Origin: Candidatus Bathyarchaeota archaeon
Lineage (GTDB): Archaea; Thermoproteota; Bathyarchaeia; Bathyarchaeales; Bathycorpusculaceae
Reading direction: 5' to 3'
Length of the DNA: 64,000 nucleotides
Assembly: GCA_026014685.1 (NCBI GenBank)
Contig: JAOZHW010000008.1
Coordinates: forward strand, 124,001-188,000
Part shown: positions 15,436-54,832 of the stretch, one piece after another
Position numbering within the stretch: the stretch's first letter is position 1
Layout of the letters: every line of letters begins with the position of its first letter
Position numbers and translations under genes: made by a program
The notes under the pieces: generated by a model
The model's database searches: none
What the model saw: the letters and a program-made list of their open reading frames with translations, nothing else
What the model was told of the DNA's origin: nothing

Positions 15436-15870
15436 CTAATGAGTTGATTGCTTGTTTGGGTATTCAATCAGCCCACGGTATTTTGTGTTTTCGAATTTCT
15501 GTGCCAGTTTAAGGTCAAGAGTAAGCAATCGAATATCTAAATTATCCGCAAGCGACAGAAAAGAAGCATCATAAACAGCAATATTATATTTCAACGCTAA
15601 TGCAATAGCGTCAACGATAACCTCGCCAAAACTGTGCACACCAAAAAGGTTCATGATTTCAAGGGCTTTGGTGAACGCTTTTTCAGCCCCTTTAGCGGTC
15701 AGTTCAGTCGATGCTTTACATTTTATGGCGTTGGCAACTTCATAATAACTAAAATCCAAAATGTGAAGAAAAGTGTGCTCTGAAATTTTTTTTAGAGCCC
15801 AATCAGAATGTTCCTCGGGGATAACTAGAGCTATGATAACTGATGAATCCACGACTACTTCAGTGACCAT
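15436..15870 (-). CDS. vapC: VapC-type PIN-domain toxin (ribonuclease)
   Basis: The 144-residue protein has the PIN-domain acidic quartet: D8 in VVVDSSVII, the glutamate in SYYEVANAI, the aspartate in AVYDASFLSLA and that in LLTLDLKLA. These coordinate the metal for RNA cleavage. It overlaps the antitoxin gene upstream by 11 bp, the standard VapBC arrangement. The RNA target cannot be read from the sequence. It separates the corrin operon from the metal transporter genes and may simply be an insertion there. Confidence 0.9.
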   Translation of the reverse strand: MVTEVVVDSSVIIALVIPEEHSDWALKKISEHTFLHILDFSYYEVANAIKCKASTELTAKGAEKAFTKALEIMNLFGVHSFGEVIVDAIALALKYNIAVYDASFLSLADNLDIRLLTLDLKLAQKFENTKYRGLIEYPNKQSTH

Positions 15871-16093
15871 GGTCGCGGTCTTCCCTGATTATATCGGCAG
15901 AAGGTGTTGTGTTACCGATTTTTTTGTATAACTCTTGCCTAAACACAGTAACTTCAGCTAGTACTTTGGCTAGTTTTTTCCTTTTTACCATTTGTTCCAG
16001 ATACGCCCGCACATCCTCTGCGTAGTCGGGGTTGAGTTGTTGAAGTTCCTTTTTTAGTTCTTTTGGAACTCTTATCGCAATTACATCGCTCAT
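15860..16093 (-). CDS. vapB: VapB-type antitoxin
   Basis: A 77-residue basic protein with the N-terminal ribbon-helix-helix-like segment MSDVIAIRVPKELKKELQQL and a C-terminal tail that would neutralise VapC. The start is supported by a TATA-like TTTATATC on the minus strand about 26 bp upstream, implying a leaderless mRNA. Three copies of the octamer TGTAAACA surround this promoter, as expected for autorepression by the VapBC complex. Confidence 0.88.
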   Translation of the reverse strand: MSDVIAIRVPKELKKELQQLNPDYAEDVRAYLEQMVKRKKLAKVLAEVTVFRQELYKKIGNTTPSADIIREDRDHGH

Positions 16094-49917: not shown

Positions 49918-51696
49918 ATGGAGATAAGAAATCTCAGAAAAGCAGTGCAAACTCTGAATAGAAAAACCGCAAAACCCCTCGTGATAGCTCTAAGCGCCCT
50001 GTTCATCGTCAGCATGTTCTCAGCGACATTAACTCAGCCAACGCAGGCAGCAACCACACTCGCACTCCACACACAAGGCGCCTACATTCTGGACTCCAAC
50101 GGAAACGTCGTGTACCTCCGCGGAGTCGGAATCGCAGGCTTTACCCCTAACTTGATTTTGTGGGGGCAAGGACAAGGAGACGCATGGGCAAACCAATGGA
50201 ACTACAACCCAACCACAGTAATGGACCAAACTTTCTCCGCGTTGCAGAATCAATGGCACGTCAACATGATCCGCGTCTTTATCTACCCCAGCTGGTGGTA
50301 CAGAGACAACATCGCTCCCTCACAAGAAAGCTCCAGCTACGCCTCGTCAACCACGCCGATTAGCACAAAAGCATACCTAAAAACCCTCTGCACAGAAGCA
50401 GCAAAATACGGAATATACGTCAACATAGTTCCCTACATGCTTACGCCTTCCACAAGCTCCTTTGACAAAGACCCATACGCAACAACAAACTCTGTCGGAG
50501 CACAAGGATTGCCGATGAGCGGCTGGGACAGCGCAGCCCAAAGATTCCTCCAAGATGCGGGCTATGGCAACAACGAGTTAGGCTTCTGGAACTGGTTCTG
50601 GGCAGACATGGCAACCACCCTAAAAGATCAACCCAACGCCATCTTTGAAGCATGGAACGAACCGCAACCAGGCGCAGACAACGCCCCCATAACCTCAGGC
50701 TATATGCAGTACCTTACAACAATGTATAACGCAATTAGAGGAACAGGCTCAAACCACCTCATCATGATGCAGTGGCATATGGGTTGGTTCCCTAACGGTT
50801 ACGGCAACGACCTCAGCTGGTGCAAACAAATCGCCACCGCCATCCCAACAGCAACCAACCTCGTCTACACCACCCACCTCTACTACCACGCCCCAAGCGA
50901 CCTGTCATCGTACTGGAAACTAGACTATGCTGGTCTTAAAGCGCAACTGCAAGCAGGCATCGCAACCATGGGCGTCACCGCACCCTTAGTCATCAACGAA
51001 GAAGGCTCATGCCTTGGAGCAGTCGCCAACAAACAAAACGACTACACATGGTGGCAAAACGTGTTGTTGGCACAACGTGACTTGGGTATCGGTGCATGCG
51101 CTTACTACTGGTTAAGCGATGCAGGTTTAGGCCCTGTTTACTCAGGTGAAACTATCCTGAGCAACGGCAACGGCTATGTTCCCAACACGATGGGGCAAGC
51201 CTTCATCAATGCATACAATGGAGCCTCGACACCCACACCGACGCCATCTCCAACTGCGACACCTACACCCTCACCGACAGCCACATCGACGCCAACTCCA
51301 GCACCCACAGCTACACCCACCCCTACCGCAACTCCAACCCCAACACCCACAACAGCTCCCACTCCAACACCAACACAATCGCCAACCCCAACCTTGACGC
51401 CGACACCGACCCCCGAACCAACCGCAACACCTGACCAAACAACAATAACCCCCCAAAACCCACAAACATCAACCCCGACAACGCCAACCCCCACCCAAAA
51501 ACCTACACCCCCCCCTTCACCAACAACAAAACCCACGCCAACCGCAACCCCCAACAGTCCCACACAAAACCCAAGCCCAACCTCAAACCCCTCGGCACCA
51601 GCACCGCAGGCGTTTACGTTCCGATACCTCTTTTGGCAGTACTGGCCAACTCTGAGGTTGCCAATCTTTAACGTGTGGTTCTTCTACATCCGATAA
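49918..51696 (+). CDS. Secreted GH5-family glycoside hydrolase (cellulase-like)
   Basis: The 592-residue protein has a signal peptide or anchor at residues 20-45 ([23 protein letters not shown]) and a GH5 TIM barrel with the N-terminal substrate segment [24 protein letters not shown], and the acid/base E248 in FEAWNEP. H320 is in YTTHLYYH and the nucleophile is E361 or E362 in VINEEG. A Thr/Pro spacer follows (435-565), then an aromatic-rich tail ([25 protein letters not shown] is the last 25 or so residues in part). It would cleave beta-linked glucans or mannans outside the cell. AGGAAGAG precedes the ATG. Confidence 0.9.
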
Positions 51697-51784
51697 ACCA
51701 CCACCCCTCCCCTTTTTGTTAAACATCTTTTTTTAGGTAAAACATAAAGCAAGCCAGTAAGACATACGTAACACGGTACCAGAC

Positions 51785-52714
51785 ATGGACATCATTAACG
51801 TACGCTTACCCGACAAAGTCATCTCAGACGTAGACAAACTTGCAAAAAAACATGAACTCACCCGCTCAGAAGTCATGCGCCAAGCACTCACAATCTACCT
51901 ACACTTAACCGAAAACGTAGGCACCATGCTTCGCCCCATCGTCTTCCAAGTAAAACCCGCCCAAATCACCTACACACGACGAGGTGACGTTTCAGTCCTA
52001 AAGATGCCCACAGGACACGCCATCGTTGCGGGTTCCACCTCAAGCGGCGCCGTTGGACCCAAAGAGTGGGATCAGGTTAAGGTTGACGGGCGTGTACTTG
52101 GGAAATTTTTGGCCCGCGTTGCTCTTATGGATGTAACCGCCACAGGCGCATTCCCCTTGCTGCTTTCAGTGACTTTGGGCGTTGAGAAAGAACCCACAGG
52201 GAACGAGATAGTGGAAGGCATAAAACGTGAAGCCCGAACCATCGGATTAGACCCAAATCAGGTGCTCATGGAGAACACTGAGGACAATTTCCAAACCAAA
52301 CAAACAGGTGCAGGCTTAACAGTGGTCGGCTTAGCAAACGAAAACGAACTGCGACTAGGAAAAACTATGCCTGGTGACTTAGTTGTGGCGATTGGCAGAC
52401 CCAAAGTCGGACAGGAAGTCATAGCCGCAGAAGCCCGAGGCGAAATCGCTGATTTACGCAATGTAACCCAGCTTACCCAACGCAAATACGTACATGACAT
52501 TGCACCTGTAGGCGGGTTCGGCATCGCGGCGGAAGCTAAAATGATGGCTTACGGTGTGGGCAGGCAAATGAAGCTTTTTGAGGTGCAGGGGTTAGATTTG
52601 AATAAAACTGCGGGTCCAGCAAGTGTGGTTTTGGTTACAATCGACCGTGATCGCCTCGAAGATTTAACAGCACTCATTCCCAAACCCATCAACGTCGTAG
52701 GCGAAATTATCTAA
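51785..52714 (+). CDS. Ribbon-helix-helix domain fused to AIR-synthase/CblS-like domain
   Basis: Residues 1-45 form a ribbon-helix-helix (MDIINVRLPDKVISDVDKLAKKHELTRSEVMRQAL). The rest resembles the PurM/AIR-synthase-like group, in particular the alpha-ribazole kinase-like proteins: SSGAVGPKEWDQVKVDGRVLGKFLARVALMDV, GVEKEPTGNEIVEGI, TEDNFQTKQTGAGLTVVG, and MPGDLVVAIGRPKVG. An intact kinase site cannot be verified here. It could be a regulator that binds a nucleotide-like ligand, or an enzyme controlling its own gene. It is convergent with coaD, overlapping by 4 bp. Confidence 0.7.
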   Translation: MDIINVRLPDKVISDVDKLAKKHELTRSEVMRQALTIYLHLTENVGTMLRPIVFQVKPAQITYTRRGDVSVLKMPTGHAIVAGSTSSGAVGPKEWDQVKVDGRVLGKFLARVALMDVTATGAFPLLLSVTLGVEKEPTGNEIVEGIKREARTIGLDPNQVLMENTEDNFQTKQTGAGLTVVGLANENELRLGKTMPGDLVVAIGRPKVGQEVIAAEARGEIADLRNVTQLTQRKYVHDIAPVGGFGIAAEAKMMAYGVGRQMKLFEVQGLDLNKTAGPASVVLVTIDRDRLEDLTALIPKPINVVGEII

Positions 52715-53190: not shown

Positions 53191-54116
53191 TTTATCAGCC
53201 TTGGACCCAGGAAATCGATTTTGCTCACGATCACCTGTTCTTTGGGTAAGGTTTGCTTAAAAGCTTCTGCTACCGCGCAAGCGTTCTCTTCATGCACAAC
53301 AGCGTGCACCGCTTCACCTATCATGTTCTGCGCCGCACCAACTGCACCTGCATTCTTTGCAACCTTGACGAGATGTCGACCGTTTTCAGTTGCAAACCCA
53401 GCTTTTTCCGCAAATTGCCAACATTCATCCAAAAAATTCTCCAAACTGGGCTCAGCCAGGATAGCTTCTAAAGCAGCTTTGCCGTAGCGGTTGATTTCTT
53501 GCTTTTTTTGGGGTGAGGTTAAGATGGATTTTTTGGGAATCTGTGTTGGATAATACCCAACCACAATCATGTATTCTGGGGATAAGGGTATGCGGTCGAT
53601 TTTGCAGAATCCAGGCGCACCTGGCTCAGTTACGAGGATGAGTCCGCCGCCAAACGTTAAGGAGCTAACGGTGCCTAAACCTGTGAGGCACTGGATTTCC
53701 GATATGTGGGCGGTTCGACCGATTTCATTGTAGGTTAACGGTAAACCAATCGCCTCGCATAATGCTAAAGCGGTGGTTAATGCGCCGCCTGCGCTGGTTC
53801 CGAAACCCATGCCGATGGGAACTTCGATTTTATGCTCCACAGTAAGGTGGTATTTTTTGTTTGTTTTTTTGAGGAGCGCCTCGATTACTTGCCGTGTGGT
53901 TTTGGCTTGAGAGGCCACATTGTTAATCAGAATGGAGATGTGGTTTTCTTTTGCTTCTTGCGCGGTTACTGTGGTGTAGCTGCCTTTGTCTAGTCCAAAT
54001 CCGCCGCCGATAGCGCCAACTCGCTCCAAGTCGGAGATTGACGCGCCGTTTTCGGTGTCGTGGATGGCAAAAAAGCTCGATATTGCTCCTGGCGCAAAGG
54101 CTTTGGCACTCTTCAC
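53187..54116 (-). CDS. Pantoate kinase
   Basis: A 309-residue GHMP kinase specific to archaeal CoA synthesis. It phosphorylates pantoate before beta-alanine addition, unlike the bacterial pantothenate kinase step. Motifs are AFAPGAISSFFAIHD, the GHMP loop PIGMGFGTSAGGALTTALAL, SEIQCLTGLGTVSS and the C-terminal KNAGAVGAAQNMIGEAVHAV. Its start overlaps the ECF S-component gene by 4 bp. Confidence 0.92.
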   Translation of the reverse strand: MKSAKAFAPGAISSFFAIHDTENGASISDLERVGAIGGGFGLDKGSYTTVTAQEAKENHISILINNVASQAKTTRQVIEALLKKTNKKYHLTVEHKIEVPIGMGFGTSAGGALTTALALCEAIGLPLTYNEIGRTAHISEIQCLTGLGTVSSLTFGGGLILVTEPGAPGFCKIDRIPLSPEYMIVVGYYPTQIPKKSILTSPQKKQEINRYGKAALEAILAEPSLENFLDECWQFAEKAGFATENGRHLVKVAKNAGAVGAAQNMIGEAVHAVVHEENACAVAEAFKQTLPKEQVIVSKIDFLGPRLIK

Positions 54117-54832
54117 GTAGATTCACTTTGCAAAGTTGGGATATTTTTCTTTTTAAGTGTTGGAAATGCCTTATAAATTGCACCTATTATGGGTGGTCCA
54201 AGAACCAGCATAAAAGGTATTTCTGTTGCAAAAGTCCACGTAAACAGTGCAAGAATCCCTGCAGCGGTTAACGCAGGGTATGCGGTTGAGGTCGGAGCGA
54301 AAAGTACAGCGTACACAGGCACCGTGACGCCTATTATTAGGCTGCCGACTAGTAAACCTACTACGCAGCCGAGTTCGTAGTTAACCCATTTGGATCTGCT
54401 CAGGACTACAGCTAAGTAGACAACGAAGCAGCCAACGATTATTCCCACGTAAATTAGGTTTGTGTAGACAAATGCAACCACTGCGGAAATAGCTGTAAGG
54501 CCACCGTAGATTGCTGTAGATTTTTTGAGCGCAAACTTTTTGTTAGCTATGTAACCAACTAACCAAAAGCCCAAAAAGTTTGAAGTTACCCCTGCCATTA
54601 AGCTTAGGAGTGGACTCCCACCTAACAGTATGTCGCTTATGAATATACCCGTAGCTGCACCTAAGCCGCCGACCCATGGACCGAAAACGGCAGCAAACAC
54701 CGCGGGAACGATTACTTGTGGCCAAAACCTTACGCCTCCGAAATTCAATGGAAGAATAGTTGAAACCAAAATTCCTAAAGCAACGTACAGCGCTGCATTC
54801 AGCGCGAAAGCGGCTACATGTATAGTTTTCAA
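54113..54832 (-). CDS. ECF transporter S-component-like membrane protein
   Basis: The 239-residue protein has about six helices and FGGVRFWPQVIVPAVFAAVFGPWVGGLGAATGIFISDIL, the pattern of vitamin-binding S-components. No dedicated EcfT/EcfA partner adjoins it, so it may share a module, such as a group II system elsewhere. Cotranscription with pantoate kinase and CoaD suggests the substrate is pantothenate, pantoate or a related precursor. TTG is the start. Confidence 0.8.
   Translation of the reverse strand: MKTIHVAAFALNAALYVALGILVSTILPLNFGGVRFWPQVIVPAVFAAVFGPWVGGLGAATGIFISDILLGGSPLLSLMAGVTSNFLGFWLVGYIANKKFALKKSTAIYGGLTAISAVVAFVYTNLIYVGIIVGCFVVYLAVVLSRSKWVNYELGCVVGLLVGSLIIGVTVPVYAVLFAPTSTAYPALTAAGILALFTWTFATEIPFMLVLGPPIIGAIYKAFPTLKKKNIPTLQSEST

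Follow-up and report, generated by a model that had tools for sequence, protein, structure and literature searches.

To our knowledge, little is known about archaeal control of cobamide (vitamin B12-type) supply, and among the matches listed the open-licence literature showed no regulator in which a ribbon-helix-helix (RHH) domain is fused to a domain related to the alpha-ribazole kinase CblS. Several described systems resemble such a fusion in part. NikR, a nickel regulator, consists of an RHH plus an ACT domain, and ThiR, from archaea, is an HTH fused to a thiamine-phosphate-synthase-like domain. The window (the whole 64-kb stretch of DNA analysed here) holds a gene at 51785–52714 (+), with an ATG start and supported by ORF, Pfam and structure model, the 309-aa product of which recalls both. 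As in NikR, an RHH precedes a putative ligand-sensing domain and the predicted operator is palindromic, but the fusion has a SelD/PurM fold and no ACT match, and its operator and targets differ. As in ThiR, an archaeal vitamin regulator would have drawn its sensor from a biosynthetic enzyme domain, but the DNA-binding and sensor folds of the two are unrelated, and ThiR concerns thiamine instead of cobamide.

The second domain of the fusion is homologous to CblS of the CblS/CblT systems of Bacillota, and the stand-alone archaeal relatives mostly occur in the same CblT-CblS order; compared with CblS, the fusion adds the RHH and lacks an Asp and a Glu that do not vary among the CblS rows compared here. 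As regards promoter layout, TrmBL1/Tgr of Thermococcales, which belong to another protein family and answer to a sugar signal, have a palindrome 5′ of BRE/TATA at activated genes and 3′ of it at repressed ones (PMC4158304, in excerpt). Finally, SEPHS1 is a SelD-fold protein found in a complex on DNA, there as one subunit of a eukaryotic complex and without an RHH fusion (going by the title of PDB 9hjt).

Here we propose that the gene product is a one-component transcription factor for lower-ligand genes, with a non-catalytic sensor derived from CblS, a reading to which we give a probability of roughly 0.7. The RHH part would bind GTATTAC-N4-GTAATAC, probably as a dimer of RHH dimers since the half-sites are 11 bp apart; the C-terminal part would be an alpha-ribazole kinase whose predicted metal-ATP site has lost two acids, reused as a sensor; and the regulator would govern how cobamide lower ligands are taken up and activated. 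Architecture, homology, residue changes, the shared motif, its spacing and the neighbouring genes were computed, and from these we infer DNA binding, the ligand, the sign of regulation and the loss of catalysis.

Domain architecture and kinship with CblS

Pfam recognizes RHH_1 at residues 4–39 (51794–51901, +; E 8.2e-7, 29.2 bits against a cut-off of 20.5) and the N-terminal AIRS domain at residues 69–155 (E 4.6e-6, 27.5 bits against a cut-off of 24). The latter falls within a CblS/PurM-fold domain at residues 66–309 (51980–52711, +), the predicted sensor, which is also supported by the model with its PDB matches and by a tree with CblS. The AlphaFold2 model (53 aligned rows; mean pLDDT 91.6, pTM 0.79) has two helices where the RHH is expected, a weakly predicted linker at about residues 41–60, and a SelD/HypE/ThiL/PurM-type fold spanning residues 55–309. 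Its best PDB chain is E. coli SelD (3u0o, Z 21.6, 233 residues aligned, rmsd 3.2), and the best HypE and ThiL chains reach Z 19.6 and Z 18.7. The protein scores below the NCBIfam equivalog cut-offs for selD (19.1 bits of 125) and thiL (16.4 of 184.15) and has no Pfam match to the ACT domain at E ≤ 0.1; sequence searches for a solved CblS structure, with a CblS profile or with the window protein, returned none. The fusion ORF is not a product of chance, because full-length fusions recur in relatives at 62–88% identity (95% for the copy in G018, which is ended by the contig edge). With both Pfam matches above cut-off and a SelD/PurM fold in the model, the joining of a DNA-binding domain to a PurM/CblS-like domain, described in an earlier note on this DNA, is borne out.

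Relatives of the protein were found in 30 of 100 related genomes (in G021 and G029 as fragments only). In the phylum, 31 of 300 genomes gave matches, seven of which had a best E above 1e-5 and were excluded as relatives; a wider scan of named genomes confirmed 123 relatives, the best 79 loci of which were used. Some of the relatives are fusions, and the others consist of the domain by itself, at about 250 aa (the stand-alone form). Among the matches listed, fusions occur in Bathyarchaeota (Bathycorpusculum and relatives) and, at 37–45% identity, in Hecatella, a Nitrososphaeria MAG, and Methanophagales/ANME-1 with related MAGs, while hosts of the stand-alone form, again among the matches listed, comprise archaea, bacteria that are mostly Bacillota, and two Ignavibacteria-type MAGs.

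The fusion is homologous to the archaeal stand-alone form over the whole kinase domain (38–46% identity), and the window protein aligns jointly with four bacterial CblS. A CblT-type gene, identified with an HMM built here, adjoins the stand-alone form in 34 of the 42 loci that hold this form, and the three such genes that were checked all match the ECF S-component family PF12822. In a tblastn search, a stand-alone archaeal relative matched seven of 72,556 plasmid records (best E 6e-29), and all four matches whose surroundings were examined adjoin cobalamin genes: one is the L. plantarum pMF1298-5 gene, in an operon published as CblT-CblS-CobS-CobC (according to an excerpt of that publication), and the other three sit amid cobU, cobS, cobC or ECF-S genes. 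We take the stand-alone form to be CblS and its partner gene to be CblT-like; the CblS kinship proposed in the earlier note was recovered by alignment, by the tree and by these plasmid matches. In the tree (midpoint rooting), the fusions together with L099, a fusion truncated by the end of its contig, form one side of a single branch (support 96/91) next to archaeal CblS. The simplest history would be one fusion event plus loss of catalysis.

Residues were compared over 103 distinct rows, comprising 52 fusions and 51 rows of the stand-alone type, among the latter L099 and also L145, with its first positions missing. At position 85, every readable CblS row (49 of 49) carries Asp and every fusion (52 of 52) Thr or Ser; at position 116, Glu occupies all 50 CblS rows, and 51 of the 52 fusions have Asp or Lys. 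In the window protein these are Thr85 (codon 52037–52039, +) and Asp116 (codon 52130–52132, +), aligned to positions 68 and 91 of E. coli SelD. At position 67, each of the 48 CblS rows that has a residue shows Arg, and 50 of the 52 fusions have Gly or Ala. Asp68, Lys93, Asp96, Arg111, Glu166 and Gly-Pro 277–278 are retained in 51 or 52 of the 52 fusions. All 50 CblS rows have Ser244 and Glu250, but only 10 and 32 of the 52 fusions, respectively, retain them, and the pocket may therefore have changed.

In a weak alignment of profiles (prob 10.7, E 0.0029), positions 68, 85 and 116 fall opposite residues 51, 68 and 91 of E. coli SelD (D68 and D91 among them), which we take to bind metal; a search of the open-licence literature gave nothing on this role. 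The acids of CblS at 85 and 116 are predicted to belong to its metal-ATP site. The loss of CblS ligand residues, which the earlier note held would tell against its proposal, is thus partial: the two acids are replaced and many other CblS-invariant positions are kept, so that binding may remain and catalysis is unlikely. The fusion is probably no kinase. The sole fusion with Glu116 is an outlier from G201 (L069, 1813–3286), a highly divergent RHH-CblS-like fusion (30% identity) on a long branch with its placement flagged as unsure; a CblT-like gene is its divergent neighbour, its position 85 is Thr, and no clear operator copy is seen.

The predicted operator and the genes that it adjoins

The regions upstream of the fusions have a palindrome in common, GTATTAC-N4-GTAATAC, just 5′ of the start codon. 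At least 11 of its 14 positions are matched in 34 of 48 such regions, compared with a mean of 0.47 and a maximum of 10 regions in 299 draws with permuted half-sites; 1.2% of random 150-nt stretches reach this score, and 11 of the 48 regions (L092 and L096 included) score below 10 of 14. The distance from site to start codon is 7–16 nt in 27 of 37 scored fusions (range 1–34). Of the upstream regions of 1472 ORFs that are 150 aa or longer, taken from the examined loci (a redundant set that includes the true sites), 121 reach 11 and 48 reach 12 of 14. The consensus was derived from the fusion upstream regions themselves, only the test on ECF-S-like genes described below being independent; the genomes are related, and neither operator nor neighbour counts are independent events. 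We predict that a conserved palindromic operator at its own and its target promoters is what the regulator binds.

The copy in the window (51757–51774), which is degenerate (11 of 14) and lies 10 nt before the fusion start codon, is the only match with up to three mismatches in the 64 kb. It proves nothing alone, because 1.44 such matches are expected, and at least one was present in 74 of 100 shuffles. A possible TATA-like element (51743–51749, +), seen by eye, starts 14 nt before this copy; the scripted scan called none. The cob promoters of the window have no operator match with up to three mismatches, and no Rfam riboswitch model reached threshold in the window despite its corrin genes. 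Between the corrin and CbiMNQO-like genes lies a PIN-like ORF with a small antitoxin-like ORF (15436–16093, −; VapBC-like by eye).

Searches of genomes with strict operator patterns found no site in five of 11 genomes and in seven of 21 in a second set. A reversed-pattern control also matched (0–2 per genome in the set of 11, 0–5 in the set of 21), and single weak sites therefore mean little. With up to two mismatches, the window's own genome gave as many real matches (3+3) as reversed ones (3+3), and only a perfect site stands out. Additional matches are found at L189 and L196; those at L187 and L199 lie inside ORFs and were taken as chance.

Neighbouring genes were counted at 42 fusion loci (L116 and L121, with no focal ORF, were omitted; L106 and L107 are near copies), with representatives assigned by HMM and the rest by likeness or by an HMM built here. 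A divergent neighbour that is cobamide-linked or recurrent is present at 23 of the 42: CblT(-CblS), the commonest, at nine, CbpAB at five, a CobT-led group at four (L102, L103, L115 and L130, where the CobT-like ORF is short), a TrpD-led group at four, and a NicO-like gene at one (L126, E 7.9e-7). The remaining 19 include 13 from the window's genus and a few others that stop at a contig edge. HMM matches include CobT at L102 (TIGR00303, E 4.6e-118) and L115 (TIGR03160, E 6.7e-135), and CbpB at L118 (TIGR04163, E 8.7e-163), where CbiMNQO, CbiT and CbiL lie directly downstream of the fusion. Predicted targets in relatives include CblT-CblS, CobT and a TrpD/ADH pair. This last pair, a TrpD-like phosphoribosyltransferase and a Zn-dehydrogenase, adjoins the operator at L180 (4617–6678, G001:C54), L115, L122–L125 and L130, with CobT also present at L115 and L130; the TrpD-like gene of G001 is above the cut-off of TIGR01245 (E 2e-74), and the pair possibly carries out a lower-ligand step instead of one in tryptophan synthesis.

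In the window's genome the single perfect operator lies between cbpAB (CbpB E 3.3e-145; CbpA 32.3 bits, just below the cut-off of 35) and a gene for a 209-aa ECF-S-like protein, and these would be the predicted regulon there. By homology the ECF-S-like gene is present in 16 of 61 genomes, all within the genus, and 11 of these orthologues were found by homology alone, not via the motif. A site with 12–14 matches stands 31–67 nt 5′ of the homology match in all 16, whereas permuted draws scored at 12 or more of 14 gave a mean of 0.007 and a maximum of two of 16. The gene occurs in 15 of 19 genus genomes with the fusion (that of G018 truncated) and in one of 13 without it (Fisher p 1.7e-4, uncorrected for kinship or MAG gaps), the other four genus members with the fusion having no match. 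The same family is found 3′ of CobT at L102, L103 and G375, and in G375 a separate operator site lies ahead of CobT.

The ECF-S label comes from an HMM match to PoK-side proteins (best E 2.6e-8) and from the neighbourhood. The window's own PoK-side protein matches Pfam ECF families; the target matches no Pfam family above cut-off, and its model is poor (pLDDT 58.6). Direct homology of the family to CblT was considered and set aside, hhalign giving only a weak 27-column match (prob 6.1). The window's genome has an archaeal CobT (TIGR00303, E 1e-122); a CblT search, run without a positive control, gave no match there, and the fusion is the only CblS-like match, with no separate CblS found.

CbpAB comprises the CbpA precursor and the radical SAM/SPASM maturase CbpB. 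A predicted operator common to CbpAB and the regulator is seen at L178 (5450–6862, G000:C7), L118, L113, L120, L129 and L164, and the link between CbpAB and operator occurs in both the window's genome and ANME-1. Searches of the open-licence literature for CbpA and CbpB gave one paper, PMC2763108, the title and abstract of which deal with different subjects. The shared operator would tie the modified peptide of this orphan system to cobamide or cobalt metabolism.

Sign of control and candidate ligand

A TATA-like hexamer oriented towards the target lies 10–12 nt past the operator in 41 of 43 scored target promoters (those of CblT-CblS, CobT, the ECF-S-like transporter, CbpAB and TrpD/ADH), at offsets of 12 in 28, 11 in eight and 10 in five; one more is at 14, and one promoter fails the pattern. 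The rate of the hexamer at one random position is 0.0043; possession of both a site and a target was the basis for selecting the 43 promoters, many of which are related, and the search covered offsets 7–14. This near-fixed register is seen in both Bathyarchaeia and ANME-1. By eye, a purine-rich BRE-like stretch lies between operator and hexamer, and both divergent sides of the perfect site in the window's genome have the operator-BRE-TATA arrangement. A review of archaeal TrmB regulators associates sites 5′ of BRE/TATA with activation and sites 3′ of it with repression (PMC4158304, in excerpt), and on this rule we propose activation at the targets, where the operator would stand just ahead of the BRE-like stretch and TATA box, and autorepression at the regulator's own gene. 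Activation, perhaps through contact with TFB/TBP, is slightly favoured by this analogy, while the position of the site close before the start codon suggests that the regulator's own gene would be autorepressed. The opposite sign at the lower-ligand genes, with the protein covering the BRE and blocking TFB until ligand releases it, falls somewhat short of even odds in our judgement: the operator ends only a few nucleotides ahead of the purine-rich stretch, and repression could likewise arise from a site in contact with the BRE, but the near-fixed register to the TATA-like element fits protein contact, and sites 5′ of BRE/TATA accompany activation in the TrmB precedent.

As to what is sensed, we lean towards a lower-ligand alpha-riboside (alpha-ribazole type) or its 5′-phosphate. 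A regulator sensing a lower-ligand nucleoside was already suggested in the earlier note, and the idea gains comparative support from the divergent CblT-CblS, CobT and CbpAB genes, the conserved operator, and the operator-preceded ECF-S-like gene. With the same operator and regulon, the ligand might instead be another cobamide or cobalt signal, or simply ATP/ADP, as would accord with CbpAB and a NicO-like transporter among the targets, with the L118 fusion directly 5′ of CbiMNQO-CbiT-CbiL, with the window's genome showing neither a CblT nor a separate CblS match, with the variation at positions 244 and 250, and with nucleotide binding being common in PurM-fold proteins (judging by PDB titles). 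We consider such a ligand unlikely, given that the domain nests beside archaeal CblS in the tree and keeps many CblS-invariant positions, and that CblT-CblS is the commonest divergent neighbour. Much less probable is a bifunctional, self-regulated alpha-ribazole kinase. Its CblS family membership and the lack of any other CblS-like match in the window's genome would suit this role, but the Asp is gone in 52/52 fusions and the Glu changed in 51/52, and several genomes retain, beside the fusion, a separate CblS with both residues; the self-regulated salvage enzyme that the earlier note had offered as an option is accordingly disfavoured. Least probable of all, and largely refuted, is a regulator of CoA synthesis acting through the neighbouring PPAT-PoK-ECF-S operon, although this operon, convergent to the fusion gene, is a conserved neighbour across much of the genus as well as in G273/L108, L104 and L109. 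None of 15 promoters of the CoA-side ECF-S gene reaches 11 of 14 operator matches and the other fusions among the 42 loci are without these CoA neighbours, so we have rejected the CoA genes that the earlier note kept as an alternative context.

The family of the ECF-S-like gene that heads the PoK-PPAT operon (54113–54832, −) is a distant relative of the regulon's transporter, and the gene perhaps encodes a pantoate or pantothenate transporter. Directly 5′ of the regulator is a GH5 cellulase gene (49918–51696, +; Pfam E 1e-15) with a long Pro/Thr-rich C-terminal stretch.

Meaning for archaeal cobamide metabolism

The proposed regulator with its CblS-derived sensor can be extended to an undescribed family of archaeal factors, in Bathyarchaeia, Hecatella, a Nitrososphaeria MAG and ANME-1, in which a dead alpha-ribazole kinase would sense a nucleoside, activate lower-ligand uptake and attachment, and drive CbpAB; in this full form the proposal has, in our view, an even chance of being right. 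If true, it would provide a dedicated archaeal cobamide regulator with a predicted operator, a predicted regulon and a candidate ligand, in hosts that are mostly uncultured lineages important in carbon cycling (Bathyarchaeia, ANME-1). It would also mean that an enzyme of the PurM/SelD fold was made into a gene switch through lost catalysis. Two orphans, the ECF-S-like transporter and the CbpAB peptide system, would gain a handle, and, if the reading of CbpAB holds, its peptide would be placed within cobamide metabolism.
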